A stretch of 64,000 bases of DNA from Phycisphaerae bacterium. Lineage in GTDB: Bacteria > Planctomycetota > Phycisphaerae > UBA1845 > Fen-1342. The notes under the pieces are model-generated. The model was not told where the DNA came from, made no database searches, and worked only from the letters and a program-made list of their open reading frames with translations. Shown here in pieces: positions 64 through 20,682 of the stretch. A program made the translations under genes and the position numbers. Location: NCBI GenBank assembly GCA_028279405.1, contig JANQNU010000021.1, positions 1-64,000 on the forward strand, given 5' to 3'. The stretch's first letter is position 1. Every line of letters starts with the position of its first letter.

Positions 64-124
64 CTCGCTCGTCGGAAACAAACTTCGTGCGCCTTCTTCT
101 TGCGCTCGGGGCTCGTTCTTGTCG

Positions 125-1285
125 TCAGGATGGAGTAGGGGCACCCGTCAGTTCGCCGTCACGAACGAGTTGCTCGTACACGGCGACCGTCCGCGACGCG
201 ACCGAATCGGGATGGAAGCGTTCGAACGCGGATTGGCGCGCCGCCGAGCTCATGCGCTGGTTGAGCGGGTCGTCGGTCAGCAGCCCGCGCAGCCGATCGG
301 TCATGGTCGGCAAGTCGTCAGGATCGACCAGGTAGCCGGTGGCACCCTCGTCGATCATGTAGACCATGCCGCACCGATTGGACGAAATGACCGGAACGCC
401 CGCAGCCATTGCTTCCGAGATCGCCATCGGCGCGTTCTCCTGCAACGACGGCAGCACGAACACCTCAGCCTCCGAGAGCTGCTTGCGGATCTCCGCCGGC
501 GGTACGCGACCCAGCAACTGCACCTGGGATTCGACCCCGAGCGTACGAATCGTGTCGCGCAATTCCTGCGCGTACGGCGGGTCTTTCTCTTCGCCGGCCA
601 GGTGGAGGGAAACGGAGAGTCCCTCCTTCACGAGCGGCGCGAACGCCTTGACCAGCCCGATCGGGTTCTTGCGCGGCGTGATCCACCCGGCAAAAAAAAC
701 GCGGCCCGCGACCGGACGGCGCTCGATCTGGAAGAACGCCGGCTGCAACGGGTTCTCGATGTCGTGGATGGTGGCGTTCGTCCGACCTTCGATGTGCTCG
801 CGCACGTAAGGCGTAATCGAAATCACCTGCCGCAACCGCTTGAGACCGCTGCTTTCGATCCACTTCCATAGCGGAACTCGCAGCCATGCAAAGCGCCGGC
901 CCTCCGCCGGGATGTTCGCATGATCGAAGCCGTGGATCGTGAATACCATCGGGATCGGCAAGGTTGTCAGGCCGTAGCCGTACGTCTCATGGCAATGCAG
1001 TACATCGGGGCCGAGCGACAGCAGGTACCTTCGCAACGTCGCGCGGCCCGGACCGCAAAGAATATCGAACATCTGCGGCCACCGGGATCCCGGCAGGCGG
1101 TGGATCGTTGCCCCGTCGAAGGGCTCGACCTGCAACGTGCTGCGACCGCGTTCGAGCGTGACGACATGCACGTCCAGATCGTCGCGGGCAGCGAGAGCCC
1201 GGGTCAGGCCCAGGGTCACGGTCTCGACACCTCCGCGCGGCGCGTCGGGGTCGTTCGGGAATCGGCTGAACAACGCTACTTTCAT
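125..1285 (-). CDS. Glycosyltransferase, GT4 family (GT-B fold)
   Basis: 386 residues, the usual length for a GT4 enzyme. It probably adds a sugar from an NDP-sugar donor to the lipid-linked EPS repeat unit at the cytoplasmic membrane face. The N-terminal acceptor domain has the glycine-rich RGGVE motif (residues 17-21). The donor domain has basic residues at R205-K206 (TPRKNP) and the E-x7-E pair E283/E291 within LQENAPMAISEAMAAG, the family's nucleotide-sugar signature. It is the last gene of the EPS operon; its ATG overlaps the stop of the upstream glycosyltransferase by 4 bases. Sugar specificity cannot be read from the sequence. Confidence 0.92.
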   Translation of the reverse strand: MKVALFSRFPNDPDAPRGGVETVTLGLTRALAARDDLDVHVVTLERGRSTLQVEPFDGATIHRLPGSRWPQMFDILCGPGRATLRRYLLSLGPDVLHCHETYGYGLTTLPIPMVFTIHGFDHANIPAEGRRFAWLRVPLWKWIESSGLKRLRQVISITPYVREHIEGRTNATIHDIENPLQPAFFQIERRPVAGRVFFAGWITPRKNPIGLVKAFAPLVKEGLSVSLHLAGEEKDPPYAQELRDTIRTLGVESQVQLLGRVPPAEIRKQLSEAEVFVLPSLQENAPMAISEAMAAGVPVISSNRCGMVYMIDEGATGYLVDPDDLPTMTDRLRGLLTDDPLNQRMSSAARQSAFERFHPDSVASRTVAVYEQLVRDGELTGAPTPS

Positions 1286-2493
1286 CGCGTATCCCTATTC
1301 TTGTCGCTGGACTCGTCAAGCTCCCGAAAGATTGCCACGAAGCGCTGCATGCACGCGTCGAGCAAGTGATTATCGACATAGTAGCGGTGAGCGCGAGCCG
1401 ACGCGTCCCCCCATTCGGCCGGGTTCTCCAGCACGCGCCGCAATACCTCGGCCAACCCGTCGACCGAGCGCACCAGCCAACCGGCGCCCTCACGCTCGAG
1501 AATGCCGTCGGGATCGTAGGTGCTCAACGTGGGTGTCCCCTGGCTCCAGCCTTCAAGGAACGTGTTCGGAAACCCCTCGTAGATCGACGTACAGCAAAGC
1601 AGCGCGGCGTCCCGATAGAGAGGCCGCAACTGTTCCGGCGTCACGCGCCCGTGCAGGACGACGTTCGCGGTACGCTCGGCACGCGCCGCAACGTCCGCCG
1701 CATAGCGTTGGTAGTCGGCGCCGCGGTTCATCCCGCCCACGACGTCAAACACGACCTGCGGAAACCGGTCGGCGAGGTCGAGCAGCCATTCGAGCCGTTT
1801 CTCGATCCGAAACCGACCGACCCACAATACGCGCGGGGACGCCGGCAACGTGCGTCCCGCTTGCCCCGGCGGATAATCACACGGCATCGGCAATGTGAGC
1901 GACGTGCGACCGAACCCGTCAACGAGCATCCGCTGCTGCTCGCGCGTCTGGCAGACGATCTGGTCGACCCGGCGCAAACCATAGCGATAGAGGATCTTCT
2001 CGCGCATCGGCGGTAATGCCGGGAGGCGCGGATCACAATCTGGCGTACTCGCGACCGAATAGACGCACCGCTTGCCGGCTCGCCGACACCATGCAACGAC
2101 CTGACCCAGCCCGCCGTCACCTTTGTTGTAGTAGTAAACGTCGGCATCGGCGCGGCGCAGCGCCGCGTTGAGACTGAACCAGCGCGGGTAGACAAACCGT
2201 ACGAGCGGCAGTCCGGCATCGCGCTTGCAAAGATTGAACACCTCAACGCCATTGACGGGTGCCCCGTCAGGATTGCCGTTGTCCCAGGTAATCATCGCTG
2301 TCGGGATGCCCTGAGACGCCGTCCAGCGGGCCATCATCGCCAACTGGCGCTCTACACCGCCTGCGTGACCATCATCGACCTCTGCGAGTGCCCCATACCC
2401 GTTGTGCGCGATGAAACAGACGCGCGGGACGCGCAAATCATGCGGGACAGGCCCGGCAACCGCAACAGGACTGGTAACGGTGTCTTGGCTCAC
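1282..2493 (-). CDS. Glycosyltransferase, GT4 family
   Basis: 403 residues, GT-B fold. The N-terminal half has HAGGVERQ (residues 43-50), the acceptor-side glycine loop. The donor half has VGRFRIEKRLEWL (225-237) and the E-x7-E pair E306/E314 in EGFPNTFLEGWSQGTP. It sits between the flippase gene and another GT4 gene, with 4-base overlaps at both ends, so it belongs to repeat-unit assembly of the EPS. About 20 N-terminal residues before RVPRVCFIAHNG are not typical of the fold, so a slightly later start is possible. Donor and acceptor are unknown. Confidence 0.9.
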   Translation of the reverse strand: MSQDTVTSPVAVAGPVPHDLRVPRVCFIAHNGYGALAEVDDGHAGGVERQLAMMARWTASQGIPTAMITWDNGNPDGAPVNGVEVFNLCKRDAGLPLVRFVYPRWFSLNAALRRADADVYYYNKGDGGLGQVVAWCRRAGKRCVYSVASTPDCDPRLPALPPMREKILYRYGLRRVDQIVCQTREQQRMLVDGFGRTSLTLPMPCDYPPGQAGRTLPASPRVLWVGRFRIEKRLEWLLDLADRFPQVVFDVVGGMNRGADYQRYAADVAARAERTANVVLHGRVTPEQLRPLYRDAALLCCTSIYEGFPNTFLEGWSQGTPTLSTYDPDGILEREGAGWLVRSVDGLAEVLRRVLENPAEWGDASARAHRYYVDNHLLDACMQRFVAIFRELDESSDKNRDTR

Positions 2494-4079
2494 GAGGCCA
2501 CCTCCGGAGCGCCATCGCGCCGACGTCCAAGGCGTTTCAAGATCCGGTCACGCACTGTCGGCGGAAACACGAAAAACCAATAGGTGATCACCAGCACGGC
2601 ACCGCTTCCCCCGAGCGTGACGCCGAGCTGCGTCCATAGACCTACCGTGCCCAGCAGCGGGGGTACGGACAACAGTACGGCGACGAACGGCAAGCATGCA
2701 ACCAACGGCCCCCACAGGATCGTCAGCAGGTAGCGACCAAACGGAAGCTCGAGCGCCCGGCATGCATAGAGCGGAATCAACACGCCGCCGGTAGCCGTCA
2801 CGCAAAGACCGATGACGACAGCAGCGGACAGCATGCCCCAGCCCAGCCAGCCGATGCCGATGCCGACAACCACGAGACCGATGATTGCGACGATGCACTC
2901 GAGAACGGCCGCAAAGCCGTGAATCCCCATGCCCATCAGAACGCTGTAGGCGCTGTTCTGCCCGATTGCCAGCACATGCCCGGCCGCGAGTACTGCGATC
3001 ACCTCGGCCGCACGAAACGCCGGATCCTTCATCCACAGCTGCACGAGTGGCCCGCCTTGCAGGATGAGCACGATCATCAATGGAACCGCGAAGTACATTC
3101 CCCAGCGGTTTCCCTTGAGCATCAGTTCCTGGAGGGCCTTGGTGTTTTTTTCGGAGTGCAGCGCCGCTGCGCTGGGGACGAACACCTGGGAGTATTGTTT
3201 AAGGAAACGGTGCGCGTGCATGACGAGCGCCTGCTGTCGGGCGAAAACCGCCAGTGTCCCGGGCCCCAGCCATTTCGCCAGCATCAGCCGGACGCCGTAC
3301 TGCAACCCGCCGCGGGCGAACTCCTGCATCACGGTCTTGCCGCCGAACTGCAGCATCTCGGCCATGACGGATCGCCGAACGTATTGCGGTCCGATGCGCA
3401 ACGTGCGGCAGAGCCGAAAGGCCAGCGCCGCGCGTGCGAGCGTCGCCGCTACTTCGAGCGCCAGATTGAATGCCGCCAGACCCACGATGCTGCCGCCGAG
3501 GGTCAGAATCAGGATCATTCCGACCAGCGAGCTGGAGTCGCGCAGCCAGCGAATCCCGTTCAGCGCATCGAACCGTTCGTGTCCCGTGATGATGCCGTTG
3601 AAGGCGCCGCCCGGCAGCTGGATGGCGGCGGCGGAGATTAGCAGGATCGCCGTCCATTGCGCCGTCGCCCGCTGGTCGGACGTAACATCCCGGTCCAGGA
3701 ACGCGGCGGTCACGTCGAACGCAGTTACGGCGAGAATGACCAGCAAACACATCGACGCCAGTATCGCAAGGCTGGAACTGAAGGCGCGATTCAGATCCTC
3801 CCACGCCTCGACGGCTCGATACCGCGCGGTGTAGCGGCTCACCGCCGACGTGATTCCGAGCGAGAGCAGGCCGACGTAGAGCACCAGCGACCAGCCCCAG
3901 TCCCAGATTCCGAGGAGCTCCTGCCCACGATAGTCATTGATCAGCCGCGGCACGACAAAGCCGTGAACGACGACGATCGCATACCAGATCCAATTGGTGA
4001 CCACGTTGCGCATCAACGATGGTCGACGGGTCGGAGCGCGGGCCATCTCAACAGGGGCGGGTTTCGTCATCGGCGTCAC
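2490..4079 (-). CDS. Lipid-linked oligosaccharide flippase, Wzx/MOP superfamily
   Basis: 529 residues and strongly hydrophobic, with around a dozen predicted membrane helices spread over the whole length, as in polysaccharide biosynthesis (Wzx-like) proteins of the MOP exporter superfamily. The role expected from family and context is to flip undecaprenyl-linked EPS repeat units to the periplasmic side. A basic cytoplasmic N-terminus (ARAPTRRPSLMRN) comes before the first helix. It overlaps both neighbours by 4 bases. The presence of this gene together with an O-antigen-ligase-like protein and a Wzc-like kinase indicates a Wzx/Wzy-dependent pathway. Confidence 0.85.
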   Translation of the reverse strand: MTPMTKPAPVEMARAPTRRPSLMRNVVTNWIWYAIVVVHGFVVPRLINDYRGQELLGIWDWGWSLVLYVGLLSLGITSAVSRYTARYRAVEAWEDLNRAFSSSLAILASMCLLVILAVTAFDVTAAFLDRDVTSDQRATAQWTAILLISAAAIQLPGGAFNGIITGHERFDALNGIRWLRDSSSLVGMILILTLGGSIVGLAAFNLALEVAATLARAALAFRLCRTLRIGPQYVRRSVMAEMLQFGGKTVMQEFARGGLQYGVRLMLAKWLGPGTLAVFARQQALVMHAHRFLKQYSQVFVPSAAALHSEKNTKALQELMLKGNRWGMYFAVPLMIVLILQGGPLVQLWMKDPAFRAAEVIAVLAAGHVLAIGQNSAYSVLMGMGIHGFAAVLECIVAIIGLVVVGIGIGWLGWGMLSAAVVIGLCVTATGGVLIPLYACRALELPFGRYLLTILWGPLVACLPFVAVLLSVPPLLGTVGLWTQLGVTLGGSGAVLVITYWFFVFPPTVRDRILKRLGRRRDGAPEVAS

Positions 4080-4978
4080 GCGTATCCGTAGCCGCGGTTG
4101 ACCTCGCCGGCGAGTCCGTCGAACTCGGCCAACTGGTCCGCAGAGAGCTCGTCATGCCACTTTTCGTCCAGCCGGATCTCCCGCAACGGCTTGAGCCGCA
4201 TGCTATTGCCGAGGATGTGATGGGGCTCGGTCGCGGCACGCTGCGGGGTCTGCGGGTCGACGCCGACCAATCGAAACAGATCGGGCAGGATCTCGTCCGG
4301 ACGTAGACACAAGTCTTCGTAGCGCACGGTGGCGTACGCCGCTTCCGGGAGTCGGCGGAGTACACGCTGCGATTCCTCGTGCATGCGTCGCCACTCCTGC
4401 GCCGCGCTCGCGACGCTGCACGCGTCATGCTTGATCGTCGAGTTTGCAACGGCCCGGCCATCGCGTACGAGGTGGATCACGCGAATATCGGGAAAGCCGG
4501 CCTCGATCAGGTACTTGAGCCGCTGCGGTTCCTTTGATCCATCGAGAAACACATCCGCGCCCTGTAATTCCGTTACGACCTCGGCCAGCGCACGGTTGCG
4601 CTCCAGAATCTCCTCGAACGTACGCGCCGCCCCCGGCAAGGTCTGTAATGCCAGTCGGCGTACCGACTCGAACCCTGCGCCGCGCACCCGCGCCCGCAAC
4701 ACGCGGTCGAGCATCGGTCGTGCCGGGCGACGAAACGCAGTCCCGAAGTCCGCCAGATCGAACTCGATCCCGCGCTGCGCCAGTCCGTCAGCCACCTGTT
4801 GCCAGAAATCACATTCGACGATTCGTGTCCCGCATGAGCAAACGTACTCCGCAATCTCGCCCATATGCGTCGCTTTGAGCTCGCCGATCGTCGCGATCTG
4901 CGGATGCCGCGCGAGCAGGATGGTCAGAAGCGTCGACCCGGAATAACTGGGCGACAGGATGTAAGCGAATCGTTTCAC
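4076..4978 (-). CDS. Sulfotransferase family protein (EPS sulfation)
   Basis: 300 residues from a GTG start. A longer frame exists upstream, but the GTG at 4978 overlaps the preceding stop as GTGA, like the other junctions of this operon, and begins exactly at the fold (VKRFAYILSPSYSGSTLLT). The PSYSGST loop (about residues 9-15) is the 5-prime phosphosulfate-binding loop for PAPS. HLVRDGRAVANS near residue 155 matches the 3-prime phosphate-binding motif. By family it moves sulfate from PAPS to a hydroxyl; by context the acceptor is the polysaccharide or its lipid-linked precursor. A cysteine pair (VCSCGT) after the first motif is unexplained. Confidence 0.85.
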   Translation of the reverse strand: MKRFAYILSPSYSGSTLLTILLARHPQIATIGELKATHMGEIAEYVCSCGTRIVECDFWQQVADGLAQRGIEFDLADFGTAFRRPARPMLDRVLRARVRGAGFESVRRLALQTLPGAARTFEEILERNRALAEVVTELQGADVFLDGSKEPQRLKYLIEAGFPDIRVIHLVRDGRAVANSTIKHDACSVASAAQEWRRMHEESQRVLRRLPEAAYATVRYEDLCLRPDEILPDLFRLVGVDPQTPQRAATEPHHILGNSMRLKPLREIRLDEKWHDELSADQLAEFDGLAGEVNRGYGYA

Positions 4979-6396
4979 GAAGGCTGAACCTCGACATAGG
5001 CCTGACGCCCGGTCGGCGCGGCGGTCGCAATTCGCATACGGGCATCGGACATCCGCGCCTGGTGGATCGTCAACACGCGGTAGGTCATCGCGCCCGCCGC
5101 GATCAGCCACATGAGACTTTCCTTGGGATAGAAGAACTGCGAGGACAAACTCAGCGCCATGACGTTGATTACCGCGCAGAAGCCGACGGCGCCGGTCACC
5201 TGAATCAGTGGGTCGCCCCGCGTTCGCAACATGCCGAGCGCATTCCAGCCGATCGTCCCGAGCAGCCAAAGAACGATCGCCAGGCCGACGATCCCTGAAT
5301 CGAGCACGAGTTCCAGATAGGAGTTGTGCGGATGCGTCGGCACGTATCCCTCACGTTGAAAGATCGTCTGCGTATGCGGGATGCGACCGATCCCCAATCG
5401 GCCGATTCCGATGATCGGCGAGGCACCGATGTCCATCAACACCGGCTCCCAGATGTTCTCCGTACGGCCGGCCGTGACGGCGTTCCAGTCGACCTCCTCC
5501 GTCACCGAGTCCTCGGTGCCAAGGTCCATCCCGAGTCGCGCGAGCACCTGCGGAAACACGAAGACGACCAGGAGGACACCCGCCGGAAACAAGAGCAACA
5601 ACCGACGCCACCGAACCACCGCCAGCATGAAAGCGACGCCGACGTTCGCCAGATAGGCCGCGCGCGAATGACAGCCAATCAGGGTCGGCAGCACGATCGC
5701 CGCCCCGAGCAGCGCCCACAGACGCAGCTTACCGCGTTGCACCAGCGCTACGCTGATGAGCGCCCAGAACGTCGCGGTCAACAGGCCCGCGAGGTCGTTG
5801 GCATGCAGCCCGATGAGCTTTGTGGTCAGTCGACGCGCGTCGTTATAGTCGCCAAAGAACACCGCCCCCTTCATGGACTTGTACATCAGCAGCGAGTACG
5901 CAAGCCCGACAACACACGTCACCATGATCCCGTACCAGGCATGGCGACGCGTGCGGCAACTCATGAAGAGCAACGCCCCGACAAGCAGATACTTGCACGG
6001 GTTGATGATCGTGTCCTTGACGGCCTCGCTGACTGACATGAAATGTCCGCTGGCGGCCAGGATCTCGCGGCGCGACAGCAGTGTACCCAGGTCGATCAGT
6101 AGCCGAACGGCCCCGACCATCAGCAGTGCCCAGTAGGCGCTGAATGCGTAGACCATCCAACGCGGCGTCGGGGGCAGCAGCGATGTGTCGCGATGACTAA
6201 ACCAGGCCACCAGAATTCCCAGCAGGGCCACGTTCCACGGGTTCAGGCCGGAAATCCCGAACATCTGTGTCGGCGCGTCCGGATGCTGGCTGATGACGCT
6301 CAGCAGAATCAGCCCGCATAGCGCGATGAAGCGGTCACGCCAGGCCATGCCGCAAATGGCCGCCACGAACAGCCACAGTGCCGTCAGCCGAATCAC
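4975..6396 (-). CDS. O-antigen ligase/polymerase-like membrane protein (Wzy_C type)
   Basis: 473 residues with about ten hydrophobic segments and a large periplasmic loop near residues 290-360. After the loop is HPHNSYLELVLDSGIVG, the conserved HxxN block of the O-antigen ligase/Wzy_C family, which forms or transfers glycosidic bonds using undecaprenyl-diphosphate-linked glycans. In this operon it most likely acts as the EPS polymerase rather than a lipid A ligase. It overlaps both neighbours by 4 bases. The extreme C-terminus (about 40 residues) is a soluble tail of unknown role. Confidence 0.82.
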   Translation of the reverse strand: MIRLTALWLFVAAICGMAWRDRFIALCGLILLSVISQHPDAPTQMFGISGLNPWNVALLGILVAWFSHRDTSLLPPTPRWMVYAFSAYWALLMVGAVRLLIDLGTLLSRREILAASGHFMSVSEAVKDTIINPCKYLLVGALLFMSCRTRRHAWYGIMVTCVVGLAYSLLMYKSMKGAVFFGDYNDARRLTTKLIGLHANDLAGLLTATFWALISVALVQRGKLRLWALLGAAIVLPTLIGCHSRAAYLANVGVAFMLAVVRWRRLLLLFPAGVLLVVFVFPQVLARLGMDLGTEDSVTEEVDWNAVTAGRTENIWEPVLMDIGASPIIGIGRLGIGRIPHTQTIFQREGYVPTHPHNSYLELVLDSGIVGLAIVLWLLGTIGWNALGMLRTRGDPLIQVTGAVGFCAVINVMALSLSSQFFYPKESLMWLIAAGAMTYRVLTIHQARMSDARMRIATAAPTGRQAYVEVQPS

Positions 6397-8612
6397 AGCG
6401 CCGCTGCCTCCCGGGGCTGTTCGTTCTTCTCGCTCGTCGCCAGAAACGCCTGCACGTCGATCTGGATCGGAGCCCCGTTGGTTGCAGCTTCAGCGGCGCC
6501 GAAGGAAGCAAGGGTCGTCGCGATCGCCGACTCGAGCGCAATCGGTGCTGCTTCAGCACGACGCACGGCGTGCGTGAATGCGTGCAGCTCTTCGAAATGT
6601 CCTTTGCCCGGACGGGCCGGCTTGACCACCTGCTTCTTGCCGTCCCGGCTGATGATGGCGCGGTGCCAGTTGTCGATGACGCCGACCGCCCCCTGCCCAA
6701 AGACCTCGATCCGTTCCTTGTCGAAATGAGCATCACCGTTGGCGACATACATGAGCGTCGCGATCGACCCGTCGGCCATTCGCAACGTCACGATCATGTT
6801 GTCATTCTGGCGTCCCGCGGCGGAACCGCCGACCATCTCCGCATAGACGCGCACCGCGTGACTGTCGCAGAGATACTGGATCAGGTCGAGCCAGTGACAG
6901 CCCTCGCTAACGATCCGCCAGCCGCCCTCTTCGCTGTCCTGATACCACGAGTCCGCCTTGATCACGCCGGCGTTGACGCGACATTGGATCTCGATCGGAC
7001 CCTCGCGATTCTTGAACGCAGAATGGATCGCTTCGCTCAGCGGGCTGAACCGCCGATTGAATCCCGGCATGAGCAGTCGGCCTGATTCGCGCTGCGCGGT
7101 CACGACCGCCTTCAACTGTTCTCGATCGAGTGCCAGCGGCTTTTCGACAAACACGTGCTTGCCGGCGCGGAGCGCGTCGCACGTGAAGCGCGCGTGCGTA
7201 TCGTGGTGCGTCGCGATCACGACCGCGTCGATCGACTCGTCGCGCAACAACTCCTGGTAGTCGCTTGCACAGTATGCGAAGCCATGACGCTCGCCGGCGC
7301 TTCGTGCCGACAGACCGCCGGCCGAGCACAGGGCCACGAGCCGGGCCGCGTCAATCCGCTTCAGTGCGGGAATCAGCGTCCCCGTCGCGAAATTCCCGGC
7401 GCCAATCATCCCGTAGCCAACTGTGGCACCCGACGGCGCCGGCTTCGTCGCGGCGGGAAGCATGACTTTCCGCGTGGGTTCGTTCCGTTCGGGGTATTCG
7501 AAAAGGAACGCGATCGGGGCATCGGGCCCGCCGGCGTTGAGTTTGTCGTAGGCCTGCGGCGCGTCGGCGAGCTTGTAGACCTCGGGGCCGAGCTCGGACG
7601 GTCGCACTGACCCCGCCTGAATCAGGCGCAGGAACTCCGCGAGGTTGCGACGCTGCGTCCAGGGGATGTAGCCGATCGGGTAGTCGATCCCCTTGTTCTC
7701 GTAGTTGCGATCGTAGCGGCCCGGCCCGTAGGAACGCGACATGACGACTGACAGCTCTTTGTGGTAGTAGAGCCGCCAATCCGCCTCGACCTTGACCATG
7801 CCCACGATGACGACCGAGCCGCGATCGCGAACGATCTCACCCGCGAGTGCCATCGGGTCGCTGGTGTTGGCACTGGCCGCGATGTACGCCGCATCGACAC
7901 CGATGCCCTGCGTGAACTGCTCGATCGCTTCTTCCAGTCCCGGTGCGCTGCGTTCAAGCGCAAGATCCGCCCCGCACTTCCGCGCCAGGTCGACCTTGGC
8001 AGGATCGACATCGACGCCGATGACGCGGCAGCCGGTCGCTTTCAGCATCTGTACCGCCAGCAATCCGACCAATCCCAGTCCAATCACGACAACACTGTCG
8101 CCGAGCGTCACGTTTGCTTGCCGCACGCCCTGCATCGCGATCGCACCGACCGTCGCGAAGGCAGCGTCCTTCAATTCGACGCCTTCGGGGACGGGCACGC
8201 ACAAATTGCGCGGCACGAACACATACTCGGCGTGGCACGCGATCCCTTCGCCGGCACAGGCAACGGCCTGACCGACGTGCAGTTCGTCGAGCCCGCCGCC
8301 GACCTCCTCGACGACGCCGGCCAGGCTGTAGCCGAGGGGCGTCAGGGCGTCGAGTCGCTCGCGCACCTTGCGATAGGTTTCGAGCAAGCCGGTCTGATGG
8401 ATGCTCTGGATCACCTGCTTGACCTTGTCGGGCCGCGCCTTGGCCTTCGCAATCAGTCCCATGCGTGCCTGGGAGACCTTCATGCGCTCGGTCCCGCTGC
8501 TCACCAGCGAGTAGGCGGTGCGGACGAGCACACCGCCGCGCCGACAGACCGGAGCGGGAACATCCTCGAGCTTGAGCTCGCCGCTGTTGTAGTTCTGCAC
8601 AATCTGTTTCAC
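6393..8612 (-). CDS. Bi-domain oxidoreductase: zinc-type alcohol dehydrogenase fused to Gfo/Idh/MocA
   Basis: 739 residues from the GTG at 8612, which overlaps the upstream stop as GTGA and opens with KQIVQNYNSGELKLEDVPAP; the longer frame upstream is out of family. Residues 1 to about 350 form a medium-chain dehydrogenase with a GLGLVGLLAVQ nucleotide fold. From about 375 the Gfo/Idh/MocA half starts with YGMIGAGNFA and carries VEKPLA, the EKP catalytic signature. Such fusions occur in polysaccharide loci and are thought to oxidise or isomerise a sugar nucleotide, but the substrate is unknown. The ADH half lacks an obvious structural-zinc cysteine cluster. Confidence 0.88.
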   Translation of the reverse strand: MKQIVQNYNSGELKLEDVPAPVCRRGGVLVRTAYSLVSSGTERMKVSQARMGLIAKAKARPDKVKQVIQSIHQTGLLETYRKVRERLDALTPLGYSLAGVVEEVGGGLDELHVGQAVACAGEGIACHAEYVFVPRNLCVPVPEGVELKDAAFATVGAIAMQGVRQANVTLGDSVVVIGLGLVGLLAVQMLKATGCRVIGVDVDPAKVDLARKCGADLALERSAPGLEEAIEQFTQGIGVDAAYIAASANTSDPMALAGEIVRDRGSVVIVGMVKVEADWRLYYHKELSVVMSRSYGPGRYDRNYENKGIDYPIGYIPWTQRRNLAEFLRLIQAGSVRPSELGPEVYKLADAPQAYDKLNAGGPDAPIAFLFEYPERNEPTRKVMLPAATKPAPSGATVGYGMIGAGNFATGTLIPALKRIDAARLVALCSAGGLSARSAGERHGFAYCASDYQELLRDESIDAVVIATHHDTHARFTCDALRAGKHVFVEKPLALDREQLKAVVTAQRESGRLLMPGFNRRFSPLSEAIHSAFKNREGPIEIQCRVNAGVIKADSWYQDSEEGGWRIVSEGCHWLDLIQYLCDSHAVRVYAEMVGGSAAGRQNDNMIVTLRMADGSIATLMYVANGDAHFDKERIEVFGQGAVGVIDNWHRAIISRDGKKQVVKPARPGKGHFEELHAFTHAVRRAEAAPIALESAIATTLASFGAAEAATNGAPIQIDVQAFLATSEKNEQPREAAAL

Positions 8613-10087: not shown

Positions 10088-10090
10088 CCG

Positions 10091-12227: not shown

Positions 12228-13402
12228 GTCCGATTGCGAACCGCTTGACGCCATCGCTCCATCCGTGCTGTCGAAAAGGCGTAGAGAATCCAACCGAGAT
12301 GGTACGGCCGACATTCGTAGTCGATCGCTTTGGGCGGAAAGATCGTATTGGTCAACGGCACGCGCAGCCGCGCATGCAAGCGGCTCGCCACTGCCTGAAG
12401 CTTGCGGGTCAGCTTCCGCGGCTCACGCCGACAGACCTTCCGCCAAATCAGGTCAGCCTCGGTGTCGACGAGCGTCGCACCATTGAGTTCAGGCGATCGT
12501 GCTAGCCAATCGAGCCCGCGCGTCAGCGGCTCCGTGTAGTCGCCGCCGCCGGCCTCGTGCACGTCGAGCAGCGCCATCGGCGCCATCGAATCCTGATGAA
12601 CGGAATAGACCGGATAGCCTTCCAGCACGCGTCCGGTACGCGCGTCGTAGTGCCACCACCACTGGCCCGCCGACCCCATCGCATCACAAATGGCCCGCGC
12701 CCCGCGGTCCGCTGCCGCCAACGCGTCGGCGTGCCCCGTCGCGACCGAGAAGTACGAAAGGGCCTGAATCGGATAGACCTGGTCCGCGAAGCAGCCGACA
12801 TGGCCGCGCGCCCCACGTCGATCCACCGTGTGCGGGAAGATTCCGTGATCCGCTGCTAGCGCGAGGAGTTGCGCCGCCGACGAGTCGCGCAAGCCGAACA
12901 GTCGTTCGTCCGTACTGAGCGAAAGAGCAGATACGCACCACGCGAGCTCGACGACGTAATGGGCTGGATTCAACGGCTCCAACAGCGCGAGCTTGTCGGC
13001 AGCCGCCCGACGATCAGGGTGGTCGATCAGGTTGGCAACCCACAGGGTCAGTGCCACATCGCCGAGGTTCGTAACCGTTCCGACATCACTCAGCAAACCC
13101 GCGCAAACGTCATGCACGGTCGCGCCCTGCAGGGTTTCCTGGACGACCTTCGGATCCTCGCCGATCAACCCGAGCAGCGTGATGGCGGTGTACCGCCGCG
13201 AGTTGCCTTCCGGCGCGATCCGGCCGTCCTTTTTCCGCAGGCACCATATGAACCGCCGTTCGTCCGGCAGGTACATGCGGACCAGCGCTCGCAAAGCGAT
13301 CGCGCGCAACTGCTCGACATACGCCAACGTGTCGGCGGACAAGCCGTTCGAAGCAGGTGCCGCCCCGGATGCCGCTTGAGCCGATACGGCTGCGGTACTC
13401 AT
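12224..13402 (-). CDS. Unknown protein of the EPS operon, likely alpha/alpha-toroid
   Basis: 392 residues, not recognised. There is no signal peptide or clear membrane helix, so it is probably cytoplasmic. It is rich in regularly spaced amphipathic helices and aromatic/histidine residues (QWWWHYDARTG, YPVYSVHQDSMAPMAL, YHLGWILYAFS), resembling the alpha/alpha toroids of glycoside-acting epimerases, lyases and terpenoid cyclases. That fold guess is from pattern only. It lies between the initiating transferase and the WecG-like gene and shares 4-base overlaps with both, so its role is in EPS building or modification. No catalytic residues can be assigned. Confidence 0.75.
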   Translation of the reverse strand: MSTAAVSAQAASGAAPASNGLSADTLAYVEQLRAIALRALVRMYLPDERRFIWCLRKKDGRIAPEGNSRRYTAITLLGLIGEDPKVVQETLQGATVHDVCAGLLSDVGTVTNLGDVALTLWVANLIDHPDRRAAADKLALLEPLNPAHYVVELAWCVSALSLSTDERLFGLRDSSAAQLLALAADHGIFPHTVDRRGARGHVGCFADQVYPIQALSYFSVATGHADALAAADRGARAICDAMGSAGQWWWHYDARTGRVLEGYPVYSVHQDSMAPMALLDVHEAGGGDYTEPLTRGLDWLARSPELNGATLVDTEADLIWRKVCRREPRKLTRKLQAVASRLHARLRVPLTNTIFPPKAIDYECRPYHLGWILYAFSTARMERWRQAVRNRT

Positions 13403-15183
13403 GACGGCAACGCCTCCGTCTTGGAATCCATGATCGGAAGGGTAGCGACCGCGTCCGGCGTGGTGGCCGCAGGCCCGCCGCTGCTACCCGCTTCACGGCG
13501 CCGCGGCGCGACGATCCAGTCGAGGGGCACACTGAAGCGCCCGCCCAAGGTCAGCACGGTAGCCAGCAGGATCTTCAGGTCGAGCCAGAAAGACAGATGC
13601 CGAACGTACATCGTGTCATAGTAAATCCACTGGTGAAAGTCGCCACTCTCCCGATCGTGCCGACAGATCTGCCAGAGCCCGGAGATCCCCGGCCGCACCG
13701 AAAGTCTCGCCAGTCGCCAGGGAACACAAATCTGATTCTCGCGAAACGGCGACGGACGCGGTCCGATCAGACTCATCTGCCCACGCAGCACGTTAAAGAG
13801 CTGCGGCAACTCGTCGAGATTCGATGCCCGCAGGAAGCGCCCGACCAGCGTCACTCGTGGATCGTGTTTGAGCTTGAACTGCGGTCCGTCCACCTCGTTC
13901 TGCTGACGCGCCAGCGCCCGTTCCAGCGCCTGCGCATCCGCGATCATCGTCCGGAATTTCAAACACTTGAAGAGCTTGCCCTGCAGGCCCTCGCGATCGT
14001 GCCCGAAGAAGATCGGTCCACGGGACGTCAGCTTCACCGCCAACGCCGTCGCCAACATGATCGGCGACAGCAGCAGCAGCCCGACAGCTGCCACCACCGC
14101 TTCGACAACCGCCTTGCCCCGCATGTACCGTTTGCGTCGCGGGTCGAGCCGCGACTCGTTCACCGGCAGCGCCGACCGCACCGGCACGAAATCGTGATCC
14201 TCGGCGAGCAAGCGCCCCTGCACTGCTGAAACCAGCACCCGCCGATTCGCCACCGTATCGGCTGCTACCAGGGCCCGCTGCGCGATCCACGACTTCGCCA
14301 AAGTGGCCCGTGGGCCGACACAGGCGCCTGCCCCCACGACCGACGGGCCGATCAACACGACCTGCTCCTCGATCCGGGCCCCGGGTTGCACGATCAGCGG
14401 ACCGTAGAGCCGCGTATTCTCCGCGACCTGTGCGTCCTGAGCGACCCACACCTGGGGCGCCACTTCACGGTAGCTCTGCGGCAACGCCGGCCCCAACTCG
14501 GGCATCAGCCGATGCTCCAGCAGATGCACCATGCCCGCTTCGGTACGCAGGTCGACCGAGGCGGATTCGAGCGGAAAATCGCGACTGAACGCGCCGGTCG
14601 CGGACAATGTCCGCCGCAGACGCGGCAGATCGGTCAACGGAGGTGCCTCGATGTCCCACAGCGAACTCACGGGAATCAATGACGCGGCCACGGACTGTGT
14701 CTGCAGCCAGGTGTGACCCTCATAGTAGCGCTGGATGCGCCGTACGCGACCCTCGGCGTCGAACTGCAGGAACTCTCGCGTCCCGCCGTGAGATCGATCG
14801 AGCGCGACCTTGTGCCGCGCCCCGCGCATGTTCTCGATGTCGTGCAGGAACGAACTGTAGCGGATGCCGTCGATCGGAAAACAACGCGGGTCGATGACCA
14901 GCAGCACATCCGACGGCTCGAGCTCATACGCCAGTTGAGCCGCATTGTCTTCCACGATCCGCGCAATCCGGTCACCATGCTCCGCGAAACGCGCCCGATA
15001 CCGATCGTCGACCATGAATGCCGGTGCAATGATCGGCTTCTCGCGCGCGGCCCCTACCAGTGAATCCATCACGAGATCGAGTAGGATGCCCCCGCCGATG
15101 GGCAACGTCAGCAACGAGAGGCTCTCCTCCGGCTGACCGAGCGGTCGCGGCCGCGAGTCGATAATCACCGGGAAGATCGTCAC
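13399..15183 (-). CDS. Initiating sugar-1-phosphate transferase with N-terminal nucleotidyltransferase-like and hexapeptide domains
   Basis: 594 residues. The C-terminal part (from about 350) is a bacterial sugar transferase (WcaJ/RfbP type): a membrane helix after [15 protein letters not shown], then [30 protein letters not shown] and [10 protein letters not shown]. These enzymes load the first sugar phosphate on undecaprenyl phosphate. Instead of the common CoA-binding N-terminal half, residues 1-220 look like a reduced nucleotidyltransferase ([15 protein letters not shown]) and about 230-310 form hexapeptide repeats ([20 protein letters not shown]). The fusion is unusual. Start ATG overlaps the wzc-like stop by 4 bases. 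Confidence 0.88.
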
Positions 15184-17642
15184 GTCGAACCTCCAGCACG
15201 GATGTCGACCGCATCACTGGTGGCGTACTGCGGTCCCGCGTAGACGTAGTCCGCGTAGCTCGACGGATAGTAATACCGCTGCGAACGGCGCGAACCCAGG
15301 AAGACCGAGCCGAAGAAACGCCAGCTCGCCGCACTGAGCGTGTCCACCGCCTCGGTCACCTCGCGCCGGCGACAATGCGACTCGCGAACCACCAGCAACG
15401 TGCCATCCACGTGGCTTGCGAGAATCCGCGCGTCCGCGATCGGCAGCAAAGGCGGGCCGTCGAGAACCACGATGTCGTAGCCTTCGCGCCAACGCGCCAG
15501 CAAGCTCACGAACTGCTTGCCGGCCAACAGCTCGTATTGAAATGCCTCGGACACATGTCCCGCCGTCAACAGGTCAGGGCTACGGTCATCACCGGCGATC
15601 AACGCCGCGTCGCAATCCGCCTCCCCACACAGCACTTCGACCAACCCCGGCGACGTGCGCACGTTCAACCGCTTCGCGAGCGTGCCCTTGCGCAAGTCCG
15701 TATCGACCAGCAGCACCTTGCGCCCCGCATGAGCGAAGCTGCGCGCCAGCAACGCCGCGACGGTACTCTTGCCGGCACCAGGTCCGGCGCTCGTAATCAG
15801 GAGCGTATTGCCCGAGATCGATGAGAGCCGCTCGAACAACGCCGTTCGCAACATTCGACAGTATTCCGCCTGCAAACTCGGCGTGAGCGGATCGTTGGTC
15901 CCGTTCTCCGGAACCAGCGGCAGGAATCCGAGGATCGGACTCTGGGTCGAGTCGATCACGTCCTCCGTCTGACGTAGCTGCGAGCTGGCCAGCACGCGAA
16001 CGAACGCCAGACCGAACGAGATGCCAGCAGCCAGAAAGACGGCCATCGCCGTGAAGAGCACCCGCTTCTTCTCGTTGTTCGGAACCGAAGACGGAATCGC
16101 CTGGGACACGATCCGAATCGGCTGCGGAGCGTCCTTCTCGAACGTCTTCTGGGCCTCCGCCAGCTTCGCGATCTTGGCCACCTCCCGCTCCGTATTGAGC
16201 TCGTTCGTCTGGTTCTCGTAGTTGTTCGTCGCCTCGAGCGTGTTCCGAATGTCCCGCTCCTGCTCATCGATCAGCGACTGCAGCAACTCGTCACGCTTGG
16301 CCAACAGTACCTTCTGCTCCGTCAACGCCGCCAGTCGCGAAGCCGGCGTGTTGTCGAACCCGACGGTATGGTCGCCACGGGCCAGCGCGTCGTCGAGCTG
16401 GTTCTGGCGAATCGTCAGCAGCCGTAACGCATGGGCGGCGTTGTCGCGCAACTCAATCAGCCGCGGATTCCTCTCACCCAGATGCTGGGCGGCCAGCTTG
16501 ACTTCATGCCGCGCGTTCTGCCATTGGAACCACCGCAGCCGGAACTGATCGTCGTCCTGATACTCGCGCGGAATCTCACCTTCCGAGAGCGAATCGAGCG
16601 ATACCACCGGCTGCGTCGTCGGCTCCGACTCATCCGAACCCTCGGCGTCCGCAATCGCGTTGTTCTCCGCGTCCTCCGGACGCCCGTCGCCCGTCGCACT
16701 GGACGCGTCTTCGGCGTCCTCGCCAGCTTCGGCCTCCGCGGCCTCCAACTGGTCCAGCTGATAAGCGACCAGTTGCGCGTCGCGCCGCAGTTTGCTCTGC
16801 TCCTGTCGCAAGGTCTCCAGGTAGTTCCCCTGCTGCGTCACCAGCTCTTTCGGATCGCTGGTCTTGAACTGATATCGAATGCGCTCGATATCCGATTGCA
16901 ACTCGCTGATGCGGGCTTCAAAAGCACTCCGCTTCTCGCGCAGCTTGTCGAGAATGATGTCCTCGTCGGAGTCCGACTCCGTCGCGACTACCGATATGTA
17001 CGCGTTCGCCACGGAATTGACGATCACCGCCGCATCGCGCGGATTGCTCGTCTCGATCGAAATCCGCAACAGCTGCGTCCCGCTCAACGGACGAACCGAG
17101 ATCTCCTCCCGGAGCCGATCCACCGGCTCGATCGGCGTACCGAAAAGCGTCTTGGCACCCTTGCGAAACCACTCGGTCCGCATCACCGGCGACAACTCCG
17201 AAGATTCGGCGCTCCCCACCCGCACCGCAACCGGGTCGAAGACGCGCGCCAGAACCTTCGGATTGCGAATCTTCGCGACCTGCGTCCGCAGGTGCTGGTT
17301 GTAGAACGGCATGACGCCGTTGCTCTCGTTCTTGAACGCCAGCCGCGGCACGACCGGAGGGACCTCGATATCCGTGTACGACTGGTACACGGGCTGCTGC
17401 ATCATCCACGCCAGCGTCGCGCCCGGAACCGCCAACACCACGAACACGATCGCCATCGACCACTTGTAGCGCAGGAAGCTCTGAAGCGAAAGCCGACCGG
17501 CAAACGGCGCACTCGGTCGCGCCGGTCGCGACGCAGCCGGCGGTTGAGCCGGCCCGGCTTCGAACAGTTCGTAGTCGGTCGCCGAAACGGGCTGCCCGGC
17601 CCCGCGCCGATCCGGATGTTGTCGTTCAAGATTATTCGCCAT
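15180..17642 (-). CDS. Wzc-type polysaccharide co-polymerase with tyrosine kinase domain
   Basis: 820 residues. It starts with a Pro/Ala-rich cytoplasmic tail, a first membrane helix near residue 65, a long periplasmic coiled-coil region (about 200-500) and a second helix near 535. The cytoplasmic kinase has Walker A SAGPGAGKST (about 617), Walker A-prime LLVDTDLRKG and Walker B VVLDGPP. The C-terminus is tyrosine-rich (RYYYPSSYADYVYAGPQY), the expected autophosphorylation cluster. It controls chain length and export of Wzy-made polymers. Oddly, an acidic Ala/Glu/Asp-rich stretch of about 45 residues interrupts the coiled coil near 300-345. No outer-membrane Wza partner is in the window. Confidence 0.93.
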   Translation of the reverse strand: MANNLERQHPDRRGAGQPVSATDYELFEAGPAQPPAASRPARPSAPFAGRLSLQSFLRYKWSMAIVFVVLAVPGATLAWMMQQPVYQSYTDIEVPPVVPRLAFKNESNGVMPFYNQHLRTQVAKIRNPKVLARVFDPVAVRVGSAESSELSPVMRTEWFRKGAKTLFGTPIEPVDRLREEISVRPLSGTQLLRISIETSNPRDAAVIVNSVANAYISVVATESDSDEDIILDKLREKRSAFEARISELQSDIERIRYQFKTSDPKELVTQQGNYLETLRQEQSKLRRDAQLVAYQLDQLEAAEAEAGEDAEDASSATGDGRPEDAENNAIADAEGSDESEPTTQPVVSLDSLSEGEIPREYQDDDQFRLRWFQWQNARHEVKLAAQHLGERNPRLIELRDNAAHALRLLTIRQNQLDDALARGDHTVGFDNTPASRLAALTEQKVLLAKRDELLQSLIDEQERDIRNTLEATNNYENQTNELNTEREVAKIAKLAEAQKTFEKDAPQPIRIVSQAIPSSVPNNEKKRVLFTAMAVFLAAGISFGLAFVRVLASSQLRQTEDVIDSTQSPILGFLPLVPENGTNDPLTPSLQAEYCRMLRTALFERLSSISGNTLLITSAGPGAGKSTVAALLARSFAHAGRKVLLVDTDLRKGTLAKRLNVRTSPGLVEVLCGEADCDAALIAGDDRSPDLLTAGHVSEAFQYELLAGKQFVSLLARWREGYDIVVLDGPPLLPIADARILASHVDGTLLVVRESHCRRREVTEAVDTLSAASWRFFGSVFLGSRRSQRYYYPSSYADYVYAGPQYATSDAVDIRAGGST

Positions 17643-17656
17643 TACACACCTGCTGA

Positions 17657-18670
17657 CTACCCGGCATCCCGCTTGCGGTCCGGCGAATAGTAAAACGTAT
17701 GATCCACGCGGTGACGCGGTGCCACAACGGCACGATCTCCGAGAACCGCATGGTCAACGACACTGTGCTCCCCGAGGTAGCACTCATTCCATACCACCGA
17801 CGCACACACAACCGCCTCTGATTGAATCAGACACTCGCGACCGACGACCGTCGGCCCCACAATCGTCACGTCGCGGGCCACGACCGTCTCCGGCCCCAAC
17901 AACACCGGACCAATCAACCGATCCGAACTCGAAACCCGCGCGGTCTCGTGAATCAGGCTATCACCGACGCGCTTGTACCCCGGCGGGCAATAGGTGCCCG
18001 TCGTCAGCTGCCGGCACTGGACCGCATTCAGCGTGAGGTAGGATGACATATTCGTCACGCGCGGCAACACGTCGCCGAGCTCGTGGATCGCGACAGTATG
18101 CCCATCCTTGTGCAATCGCGGAATGAGCATCTCCTTAATGTCTTGAAAACCGTTGGGCTCGATGCAGTCGATCACGTCCCCTTCAACGACATACAAGCCG
18201 CCGGGAACGTAGCGTTCCGTCAAACCGCCGGTCGAACCAAACGGCGCCGGCGACGCCACCACGGTCAGCATCGCGTTGTGATCGATGTGCGTCTGCATGA
18301 CCGCCGCCAGGTCACAGTTCGGCAGAATCGTTCCCTCGACCACCAGCGCCCGGCGCCCACCGAACTGCTCCAGCGCGTCACGGATGCATCCCGCAGCCCC
18401 GCGCGGCGCAGCATCCACGAAGTATGTCAGCATCGCATGCTGTTCCGCAGCCAGCGCATGCCGCGTCTGCTTCCAACTCGAATTGGCGCATATGGTCGTT
18501 TCGGTGATCCCGCCCGCAGCCAGCCACTCCAGCGTGTGCGCCAGGAGCGGTACGTGCGCGACCGGGCGAAGGAACAGCGGACCCGAGTTGGCAAACTCGT
18601 CCTCTTCCCAACCGGTCCCGCCCGCCAGAATGATACCGCGTGTCTCCATCGTGCCCGTCGGTCCCTTCAC
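17657..18670 (-). CDS. Degenerate nucleotidyltransferase with left-handed beta-helix domain
   Basis: 337 residues from the GTG at 18670, which overlaps the heparinase stop as GTGA; the ATG at 18649 (METRGIILAGG) is an alternative. The N-terminus has the nucleotidyltransferase loop start GIILAGGTGW but lacks the conserved R and K that follow in sugar-1-phosphate nucleotidyltransferases. From about residue 245 there are hexapeptide repeats (LIGPVLLGPETVVARDVTI). It may be a regulatory or sugar-nucleotide-sensing protein rather than an active enzyme. Domain order resembles the N-terminal part of the initiating transferase two genes downstream. It lies 14 bases upstream of the wzc-like gene. Confidence 0.78.
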   Translation of the reverse strand: MKGPTGTMETRGIILAGGTGWEEDEFANSGPLFLRPVAHVPLLAHTLEWLAAGGITETTICANSSWKQTRHALAAEQHAMLTYFVDAAPRGAAGCIRDALEQFGGRRALVVEGTILPNCDLAAVMQTHIDHNAMLTVVASPAPFGSTGGLTERYVPGGLYVVEGDVIDCIEPNGFQDIKEMLIPRLHKDGHTVAIHELGDVLPRVTNMSSYLTLNAVQCRQLTTGTYCPPGYKRVGDSLIHETARVSSSDRLIGPVLLGPETVVARDVTIVGPTVVGRECLIQSEAVVCASVVWNECYLGEHSVVDHAVLGDRAVVAPRHRVDHTFYYSPDRKRDAG

Positions 18671-20682
18671 ACCGCCACGGACGCACTTCGGCGGCCGCCC
18701 GTCGTCACCCCCGCCTTCGCCCGGAGCGTGATCGTCGTCTCCAACCGCACGGAACGCTCGAACGTTCCGGAGGCGACAATGCAGGTCGCCACCTGCTTCC
18801 GGTGATAGGCATCGCTGAACCACCCACCCGTGTCCGCGTCGCCGCCGCGAACCAGCTCGAGCGAGACTGCCCCTTCATAGTTTATGGTTGCAATTCCGCT
18901 CCCAAGGTCAAGCTGAATCGCGTTTTCCTCGATCTGCTCCACCGGAACGTCCGGCGCCACCAGCAACCGATGTGCAAACGTGTGCTTCCCGCTGCCCGCC
19001 AGCTGATCGATGATGCGGACCTCCGCGCCCTCCAACGAAACCTGCCGCGTGTGCGTTACCGGATCATCCAGTCGCCGATAACCGTCATGCGACGCCGTCA
19101 CGCTCCCGCCGGCCGCGCCGGGCTTCCATTCGCGGACTTCGGTTGTCGCACGTCGACCCCAAAGAAACAAACCCTGCAACTCCGACTGGTCGCGCCCGTC
19201 GACTTCGATCGTGTTATGCGCCCGCGTGCTCCGGAAATGGTTACGCCACGGCTGGTAGGTGAAATAGTCATAGGTGCCCGCGTCCACCAGTACCGGCCGA
19301 CCAAAGGCCCGGAGCGTGATGGCCAACGCGTCGGCATGCCCATGGGCGGCGAGCGACCCGTAACCAAGCGGCCCGCAATCGACCGACACGCTCACAGGAG
19401 GGTCCGCTCCGACGCCCCCGGATTGTAGCAGGTAGAGGCCGGCGTCGCGGAAGCCGTGCGATTGCAGCGGGGCCTCGGGAGCCATCGGCATCTCGGCAAA
19501 CCGATCCAGCCCGGCGCTACCCAGGAGCCACCCAATCGCTTCGTCACTCCCCGCCGCCAAACGCTTGAGCCGCCCGTCGTCAAACAATACTGCACCGACC
19601 CCGAACCACGGCCGCAAGTCCAGCGGGTCGTCCGCGAGATCGAGCACGTATCCGTCGTCCGCGTCGTTAATCTGCGGAACCGGTCCGGCCTCGGCCAACG
19701 TGGCCAGGTAGCCGAACATCGCATGGACGCGCTTCCAATAGGCCGGAGAAAAATCGTCCTCAAAGCGCCGGGCGACCAGGCCCGCGAGCACGAAAAACTG
19801 CAACGTGAAGAAGTGGTAGCCCGTCGCGAGCTCGGCGTTCGCGCCGTCCGGCAACACCTGACGTTGAATCTCCTGCTCGAGAATCGCCTTCGCATGCCGC
19901 CGCACGCCCCGTCGGCTCCGTAACCCATCGAAATAGGCCGCCGCCACGTACGCGCCGGCCGCTTCCCCGATCAGATGATTGTTGGCCGACGAGCCCCGCG
20001 AGAACCGGATCCCGACGTCGTAGAGGTGCAGGTCGACCGCAGCCACCACGTCGCAAAGAAAATCGTCCGGCAGATAGCTCCGCAGAAGGTCGACGCACCA
20101 GGTCCAGTTGATCAGCCGAATCGCGAGCTCGAGCGGACTGCGCCAATTCATCCCGCGCGCATACGGGCATTGACTCAGCCACGAGCGCCAAAGTTGCTGC
20201 ACGGCCCGCGCGTAACGGTCGTCCTGCGTCGCACGCCAGGCGCGCGCCAAGACGACCATCTGGTGATGCCGGTTCGGTTCCCAGACCCATTTGCAGTCGC
20301 CGACCTCGCGAAAATCCCGGTAGTCAATCTGCGGCGCATAGTCGGCTGGCGAAGCCTTGTGGTGCTTGGGATCGTTGTTCCACTTGGGCGGGAGGCCGAG
20401 ATCGTACCACTCGCCGCCGAACAGCCGCAACTTACCCGTCGCGAGCTTGTCGGCCCTGGCCCGCAACGCGGCAGGATTCGAGGGGATGCCGATCGCGGGG
20501 CATAGCCGCGATTCCGCCGGAAGGTTCGGTACCGCTTCCGCGGCCGAACGCTCCGCTTCTCGCGTTCGCCGATCGAGTGCGAACCGTTCGGTCCGATCAT
20601 GCAGCGCCATGCGAACCCGCCAGAGAATCTCTGACGGGGACATAGCGCGTAATCGCTTGAAGTACCAGCCCAGTTTCTGCAT
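18667..20682 (-). CDS. Heparinase II/III family protein (polysaccharide lyase)
   Basis: 671 residues. The N-terminal part (YFKRLRAMSPSEILWRVRM, then an alpha toroid with WRSPLELAIRLINW and SANNHLIGEAAGAY) and the C-terminal beta-sandwich (HGHADALAITLRAFGRPVLVDAG, RSTRAHNTIEVDG) match heparinase II/III-like lyases found in EPS loci. These cleave uronic-acid-containing chains by beta-elimination. There is no signal peptide, though a periplasmic site would be expected for a lyase, so location is open. It is the first gene of the EPS operon; the upstream gap of 62 bases shows no clear promoter. Its presence suggests the polymer contains uronic acid. Confidence 0.9.
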   Translation of the reverse strand: MQKLGWYFKRLRAMSPSEILWRVRMALHDRTERFALDRRTREAERSAAEAVPNLPAESRLCPAIGIPSNPAALRARADKLATGKLRLFGGEWYDLGLPPKWNNDPKHHKASPADYAPQIDYRDFREVGDCKWVWEPNRHHQMVVLARAWRATQDDRYARAVQQLWRSWLSQCPYARGMNWRSPLELAIRLINWTWCVDLLRSYLPDDFLCDVVAAVDLHLYDVGIRFSRGSSANNHLIGEAAGAYVAAAYFDGLRSRRGVRRHAKAILEQEIQRQVLPDGANAELATGYHFFTLQFFVLAGLVARRFEDDFSPAYWKRVHAMFGYLATLAEAGPVPQINDADDGYVLDLADDPLDLRPWFGVGAVLFDDGRLKRLAAGSDEAIGWLLGSAGLDRFAEMPMAPEAPLQSHGFRDAGLYLLQSGGVGADPPVSVSVDCGPLGYGSLAAHGHADALAITLRAFGRPVLVDAGTYDYFTYQPWRNHFRSTRAHNTIEVDGRDQSELQGLFLWGRRATTEVREWKPGAAGGSVTASHDGYRRLDDPVTHTRQVSLEGAEVRIIDQLAGSGKHTFAHRLLVAPDVPVEQIEENAIQLDLGSGIATINYEGAVSLELVRGGDADTGGWFSDAYHRKQVATCIVASGTFERSVRLETTITLRAKAGVTTGGRRSASVAV

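Follow-up and report, generated by a model that had tools for sequence, protein, structure and literature searches.

A Wzx/Wzy-type exopolysaccharide operon in a Phycisphaerae bacterium with a conserved, partly undescribed core

The operon and its proposed product

The window analysed here, 64,000 nucleotides from a Phycisphaerae bacterium (GCA_028279405.1, JANQNU010000021.1, positions 1-64,000), carries on its minus strand a genuine operon for exopolysaccharide (EPS), known in type but with a conserved core that is partly undescribed. The initial annotation of this DNA had recognised fourteen genes between positions 125 and 20682 and had laid stress on the 4-base overlaps joining them and on a polymer that it could match to no named polysaccharide. 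All 14 open reading frames (ORFs) stand at the positions and in the order it gave (Table 1), and profile matches agree with its Wzx, Wzy and Wzc parts, CapK-like ligase, sulfotransferase and heparinase-type protein. It had passed over several features: gene 5 as a member of an undescribed family, degenerate nucleotidyltransferase (NTase) domains, the missing Wza and a probable additional gene upstream. The novelty of the locus is its core, namely gene 5, the dead NTase modules and the heparinase-like, probably cytoplasmic protein; the overlaps and the unmatched polymer are less informative.

The components of a Wzx/Wzy-dependent EPS system are present: a flippase and a polymerase, both with profiles over cut-off, a co-polymerase/tyrosine autokinase, and in gene 4 the initiating sugar-phosphate transferase, of PglC/WbaP type. 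Wza, the outer-membrane exporter, is absent among the 14 genes. The same genome does encode a Wza homologue (39% over 328 aa, E 7e-62), but on another contig (C52) and without neighbours from this operon; C52 was rejected as a continuation of the operon because the contig ends do not overlap. In many relatives a Poly_export (Wza) gene stands between the transferase and gene 5.

We consider it likely that the genes form a single transcription unit that makes and exports one Wzx/Wzy-type EPS. We infer the single transcript, the identities of the sugars, the order of the steps and all enzyme activities as follows. Gene 4 would probably place a sugar phosphate on undecaprenyl phosphate and so start each repeat unit; WecG (gene 6) would add the second sugar, probably an N-acetylhexosamine (HexNAc) or a HexNAc-uronic acid, and gene 5 would act on this early intermediate as well. 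Three GT4 enzymes would lengthen the repeat unit, and the sulfotransferase, possibly also the bi-domain oxidoreductase and the CapK-like ligase, would modify it. Wzx would then flip the unit and Wzy, together with Wzc, would polymerise it, with the Wza exporter supplied from another locus. The heparinase-like protein, probably cytoplasmic, may work as an epimerase or lyase on precursors or mis-routed chains.

A comparison of gene order among relatives, which the initial annotation had proposed as a check, shows that the order of the 5' half is kept and that the 3' half is variable: heparinase, NTase, Wzc, initiating transferase (PHPT), often Wza, gene 5 and WecG recur in this order across the taxonomic order, and the downstream part with glycosyltransferases, CapK-like ligase, bi-domain oxidoreductase, Wzy, sulfotransferase and Wzx varies. 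Records titled Klebsiella pneumoniae and Alphaproteobacteria (L059, L077) also hold a planctomycete-type cluster, and at least the title of L077 is probably wrong.

An undescribed barrel family paired with WecG

Gene 5 has no match in Pfam or NCBIfam, PF07221 included; single members of its family give weak matches to DUF6288 and SQHop_cyclase_C. The structural model (predicted local distance difference test, pLDDT, 91) is an (alpha/alpha)6 barrel, and structural alignment places cellobiose 2-epimerases of the N-acylglucosamine 2-epimerase (AGE) superfamily best (Z 27, root-mean-square deviation 3.8, 328 aligned); a fold missing from the fold-search lists was not counted as evidence of its absence. 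The invariant polar residues are H191, R199, H201, D207, H251, D253, H269, R321, D361, E363 and H368.

The gene is present in 23 of the 61 genomes searched among relatives and in 33 of the 73 genomes from the order that are ≥90% complete. A pattern scan yielded 356 encoding stretches, and all locus counts out of 80 refer to the best 80 of these, which include Planctomycetota, Actinobacteria and Rhizobiaceae. In 59 of the 80 loci WecG comes directly after gene 5 and in 3 directly before it, some of the others being cut by contig ends; Wza matches occur in 27. The pairing of gene 5 with WecG extends across three or more phyla, and in two separate G030 loci (L043, L053), both without N-runs, gene 5 and the transferase (PHPT) form a single fused ORF. 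In Rhizobium, Shinella, Cryobacterium, Allorhizocola and Virgisporangium the pair adjoins genes for a UDP-sugar dehydrogenase and a UDP-GlcNAc 2-epimerase; the neighbours are WecC-like (UDP-ManNAc-dehydrogenase-like) and WecB-like in Rhizobiaceae, Microbacteriaceae and Micromonosporaceae. The 2-epimerase and dehydrogenase steps together yield UDP-N-acetylmannosaminuronic acid (UDP-ManNAcA).

Both Pfam and NCBIfam lack a name for this family, which occurs at least 356 times in genomes and is linked to WecG in several phyla; assigning its function would improve the annotation of many EPS clusters.

Lost catalytic motifs in two nucleotidyltransferase modules

Gene 2 and residues 1-324 of gene 4 share the architecture of GDP-mannose pyrophosphorylase and eIF2B, and the model of gene 4 matches GDP-mannose pyrophosphorylase over residues 3-324 (Z 21.9). 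The GxGTR loop and the PKP lysine are absent in all 18 gene 2 homologues and all 16 homologues of the gene 4 N-terminus that were compared; the loop is kept in both control NTases from the same genome. Judging from these sequences, the two modules are probably regulatory or structural. The transferase part of gene 4 is 38% identical to PglC, with D457-E458 invariant.

GMPPA and subunits of eIF2B are likewise inactive as enzymes. GMPPA/GMPPB and eIF2B gamma/epsilon show the same pairing of NTase and beta-helix, with the catalytic motif lost as in gene 2 and the gene 4 N-terminus, but in contrast to these systems the gene 4 domain is fused to a sugar-phosphate transferase. That the products of genes 2 and 4 bind each other, by analogy with GMPPA/GMPPB, is a guess.

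The heparinase-like protein

Gene 1 matches the two-domain heparinase II/III profile (PF16889, PF07940) and heparinase III in the PDB (8e-37). N235, H236, Y289, H447 and H489, which align with heparinase III, are invariant in the 16 homologues compared, and all 16 lack a hydrophobic stretch at the N-terminus that could serve as an export signal. The gene lies upstream in the module in 23 of the 39 loci with sufficient upstream sequence.

The protein therefore probably acts inside the cell. Since all 16 homologues are without a signal peptide, export as a lyase is unlikely; more probable is an epimerase or a lyase whose substrates are precursors or chains that were mis-routed. A heparinase fold need not mean a degradative lyase, because dermatan sulfate epimerase 1 has a heparinase-like fold and serves as a biosynthetic uronate C5-epimerase (PMC8006597). 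That enzyme has active-site residues in common with heparinase II, and is eukaryotic and luminal (PMC8006597).

A bolder reading, which we regard as unlikely, takes genes 2, 4, 5 and 6 as a new initiation complex: the dead NTase modules would regulate or position the PglC-like transferase, and gene 5 would modify or check the lipid-linked sugar put on first, after which WecG would attach a residue of the ManNAcA type. Together with an intracellular epimerase of heparinase fold, this would lead to a sulfated, uronate-epimerised polymer.

Composition of the polymer

A sulfated polymer, as the initial annotation had proposed, is plausible, because the binding motifs for 3'-phosphoadenosine-5'-phosphosulfate (PAPS) are conserved and the genome contains two genes for adenosine-5'-phosphosulfate (APS) kinase. 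Both motifs (SGSTLL, RDGR) are invariant in the 8 sulfotransferase sequences compared. Among planctomycete-type loci with ≥9 kb downstream, 20 of 42 contain the sulfotransferase, which, when present, usually has Wzy on one side and Wzx on the other, an order shared by many genera.

Uronic acid had been deduced from the heparinase-type lyase. That argument is weak: the active-site positions are retained, but the lack of a signal peptide noted above does not favour an exported lyase. The case for uronic acid is a different and indirect one: it draws on the ManNAcA-type genes beside the gene 5-WecG pair in other phyla and on dehydrogenase genes in this genome, in which UDP-sugar dehydrogenase and UDP-GlcNAc 2-epimerase genes lie outside the operon. 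The acylation also proposed, for which the PaaK/CapK-like ligase is the one argument, is unsupported. An apparent split of the bi-domain oxidoreductase in L031 was rejected as evidence for a natural fusion, given the N-run in the locus and the X at the break in the translation.

Few clusters for sulfated bacterial exopolysaccharides have been characterised. It has been noted that the glycosaminoglycan (GAG)-like sulfated polymers of anammox and sludge granules come from unknown producers (PMC7356697). The module described here, which is conserved in planctomycetes and contains a sulfotransferase at roughly half of its loci, is a concrete candidate maker of such polymers.

Alternative explanations

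Several points weigh against a single unit with the steps outlined above. Relatives often leave 10-350 bases between the corresponding genes, and no genes for sugar-nucleotide or PAPS synthesis lie inside the operon. Fold matches of gene 5 extend, at Z 22-23, to GH88, GH76 and terpene cyclases, so that the fold does not fix its role, and profile comparison (hhalign) of gene 5 with a small, crude set of AGE and GH88 sequences gave no relationship. Because the same genes stand 10-350 bases apart in many relatives, conserved packing does not prove co-transcription, nor are the overlaps a conserved trait of the system. It is nevertheless distinctly unlikely that the 20 kb consist of two or more abutting transcription units. 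The sole internal promoter-like match (17659-17631) does lie at a non-overlapping junction, though such matches are fewer than chance would give; against a division stand the ten 4-base overlaps, the gaps of at most 14 bases and terminator-like sites at the chance level (14 found, 15.4 expected). The EPS itself may also be an ordinary non-sulfated one, with the sulfotransferase modifying a lipid, a small molecule or a protein. PF13469 covers a broad range of proteins, the gene is missing from about half of the related loci and PAPS genes are absent from the operon, but the usual position between Wzy and Wzx in many genera, and the place of the gene within a string of overlapping genes here, make this rather improbable.

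The two remaining alternatives concern single proteins. On the one hand, the heparinase-like protein could be a genuine lyase, exported without a classical signal peptide, that serves to trim or recycle the operon's own uronic-acid polymer. Invariant heparinase III active-site positions and the upstream place in the module of most relatives agree with this, whereas the 0 of 16 homologues with an N-terminal hydrophobic stretch do not; we also know of no lyase activity in the gene 1 subfamily, which we count against this idea, and on balance we find it doubtful. On the other hand, gene 5 could be a polyprenyl-binding or scaffolding partner, its barrel of terpene-cyclase type holding the undecaprenyl-PP-sugar between the initiating transferase and WecG. 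Foldseek indeed ranks a squalene-hopene cyclase first (8pak_A, E 1.2e-6), 3 of 21 gene 5 members give weak SQHop_cyclase_C matches (best E 0.0012), and both the fusion to PHPT and the pairing with WecG would suit such a role. Yet the structural aligner puts AGE-type sugar epimerases higher (Z 27 vs 22.5), and the many invariant polar residues resemble a sugar active site and not a greasy pocket, so that a scaffold seems rather unlikely. The reading that we prefer is still one Wzx/Wzy-type operon in which gene 5 acts together with WecG on an early intermediate.

Gene junctions and limits of the unit

The initial annotation held that almost every junction is an overlap. An exact 4-base overlap is found at 10 of the 13 junctions, including all five that it had cited as examples; the three exceptions are listed in Table 1. 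In the remaining contig only 5 of 36 junctions are of this type (Fisher p = 7.1e-5, from one crude ORF caller run over the whole contig). The packing of the operon is genuine and above chance, although 4-base overlaps are common in operons generally. The overlaps had further been taken to pin several gene starts. Homologues back the starts of the bi-domain oxidoreductase (8612) and the sulfotransferase (4978), but an NTGA by itself says little about a start, since a TGA stop after A, G or T always makes one, and the start of gene 2 is ambiguous: GTG at 18670 and ATG at 18649 both agree with the homologue alignment. An Rfam scan of the window gave no match.

The unit probably has 15 genes and starts one gene earlier than position 20682, because an ORF 62 bases upstream of gene 1 is syntenic in relatives and a terminator-like hairpin sits above it. 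The product of this ORF matches no family in Pfam or NCBIfam, and in L037, L045 and L053 a homologue of the gene immediately precedes the heparinase gene. The hairpin is one match in the region vs 2.2 expected by chance, and only its 13-pair stem is notable.

At the other side the start of the window is the end of its contig (C62). The last 78 bases of C62 are identical to the first 78 of another contig of this genome, C63, and such an exact end overlap is a typical remnant of a k-mer assembly graph. The first C63 genes beyond the join, for dihydrodipicolinate synthase (DHDPS) and a pterin-binding protein, are convergent housekeeping genes on the opposite strand. Since the overlap leads to these genes, gene 14 is probably the last gene and position 125 probably the true 3' end. 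The join itself is probably real but repeat-mediated, because the region has a 17-mer that occurs 59 times in the genome.

This 17-mer, CGAGCCCCGAGCGCAAG, lies at window 99-115; its 59 copies (control 0) often form tandem arrays with a spacing of about 94 bases and often lie close to the ends of contigs, and it probably represents a dispersed repeat family that breaks the assembly. A perfect hairpin, CCCCACCCTTTCAGGGTGGGG, at window 41-59 has four copies in the genome, one of them at the start of C63; as a specific terminator it was rejected, as it is without a T-run and adjoins the dispersed repeat.

Just upstream of the unit, window 21484-22203 encodes a protein whose C-terminus resembles a PEP-CTERM signal (E 0.0046, below cut-off). 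From an ORF at 22634-23710, about 60 aa recur at about 57% identity three times on the same contig (L051 1117-1290, 3609-3782, 5962-6147) and in L137. In the operon itself the XrtA-associated equivalogs TIGR03018, TIGR03007, TIGR03013 and TIGR03088 are all far below cut-off. A second EPS locus (L174 12210-18347 and C63:20638), with a polysaccharide deacetylase with DUF3473, a FemAB-like protein, a Wzc-like ATPase and Poly_export, resembles XrtA-type clusters; the XrtA-like features are on C63 and not in the operon.

Table 1. Genes, junctions and limits of the EPS operon (positions in the window unless a locus is named)
Feature	Position	Strand	Evidence or remark
Terminator-like hairpin, 13-pair stem then T-run	21408..21441	-	probable upstream limit of unit
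Probable first gene, 203 aa, two CxxC pairs and hydrophobic segments	20745..21356	-	synteny
Gene 1, heparinase II/III-like	18667..20682	-	PF07940 1.7e-51, PF16889 6.4e-26
Gene 2, NTase and left-handed beta-helix (LbH), catalytic motifs lost	17657..18670	-	PF00483 3.5e-7; start 18670 or 18649
Gene 3, Wzc-like polysaccharide co-polymerase/BY-kinase	15180..17642	-	TIGR01007 117.8 bits, over cut-off
Gene 4, NTase-like domain and beta-helix fused to PglC-like sugar-phosphate transferase	13399..15183	-	PF02397 1.8e-59
Gene 5, unnamed (alpha/alpha)6-barrel family	12224..13402	-	fold model, synteny
Gene 6, WecG/TagA/CpsF family glycosyltransferase (GT26)	11433..12227	-	PF03808 4.8e-64; TIGR00696 over cut-off
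Gene 7, GT4 glycosyltransferase	10091..11443	-	PF00534 8.6e-35; start 11443 or 11419
Gene 8, PaaK/CapK-like adenylate-forming ligase	8609..10087	-	NF045666 116.9 bits, below equivalog cut-off
Gene 9, bi-domain oxidoreductase (MDR/ADH and Gfo/Idh/MocA)	6393..8612	-	PF00107 7.5e-20, PF01408 2.9e-25
Gene 10, Wzy-like polymerase	4975..6396	-	PF04932 1.2e-16; 9 hydrophobic segments
Gene 11, sulfotransferase	4076..4978	-	PF13469 3.9e-15; PAPS motifs conserved
Gene 12, Wzx flippase	2490..4079	-	PF13440 2.1e-7; 11 hydrophobic segments
Gene 13, GT4 glycosyltransferase	1282..2493	-	PF13692 2.8e-18
Gene 14, GT4 glycosyltransferase, probably last	125..1285	-	PF00534 9.2e-33
4-base overlaps	18670/18667, 15183/15180, 13402/13399, 12227/12224, 8612/8609	-	
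4-base overlaps, continued	6396/6393, 4978/4975, 4079/4076, 2493/2490, 1285/1282	-	
Other junction	17657/17642		gap of 14
Other junction	11443/11433		overlap of 11, or gap of 13 with gene 7 start at 11419
Other junction	10091/10087		gap of 3
Poly_export (Wza) gene between transferase and gene 5 in relatives, examples	L058 8494-9957, L077 8719-9954		

Comparison with known systems

Synechan (xss) of Synechocystis PCC 6803 is likewise a Wzx/Wzy EPS with sulfotransferases, several glycosyltransferases and an exporter gene elsewhere in the genome (PMC8205485). Its cluster has two sulfotransferases and its own regulators, and the paper makes no mention of a heparinase (PMC8205485), whereas the operon described here has one sulfotransferase, no regulators and the gene 5/WecG core. 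The wps-1 cluster of Actinoplanes missouriensis also combines Wzx/Wzy/Wzz with a GT26 enzyme of the WecG family and, with two sulfotransferases, is proposed to make a sulfated matrix polysaccharide; it differs in a GH26 and a methyltransferase, and the paper does not mention a heparinase (PMC13390465). Within the PVC superphylum, the cluster for a GAG-like EPS in Pontiella sulfatireligans has a sulfotransferase among GT4/GT2 genes and a sulfated polymer that was measured chemically; the cluster is putative, lacking gene-by-gene proof, and its listed genes contain no WecG, heparinase or similar Wzx/Wzy/Wzc set (PMC7356697).

The searched texts on planctomycete Wzy clusters, monotopic transferase fusions, Vibrio HE800, Vibrio KMM 8419 and Cobetia clusters contained no matching gene set. 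In the enterobacterial common antigen system, wecB-wecC-wecG includes a WecG family transferase, initiation is by the polytopic WecA, and there is no gene 5. WecG is thus common to both systems, but initiation here is by a PglC-like transferase. Counterparts of wecB and wecC adjoin the gene 5-WecG pair in other phyla.

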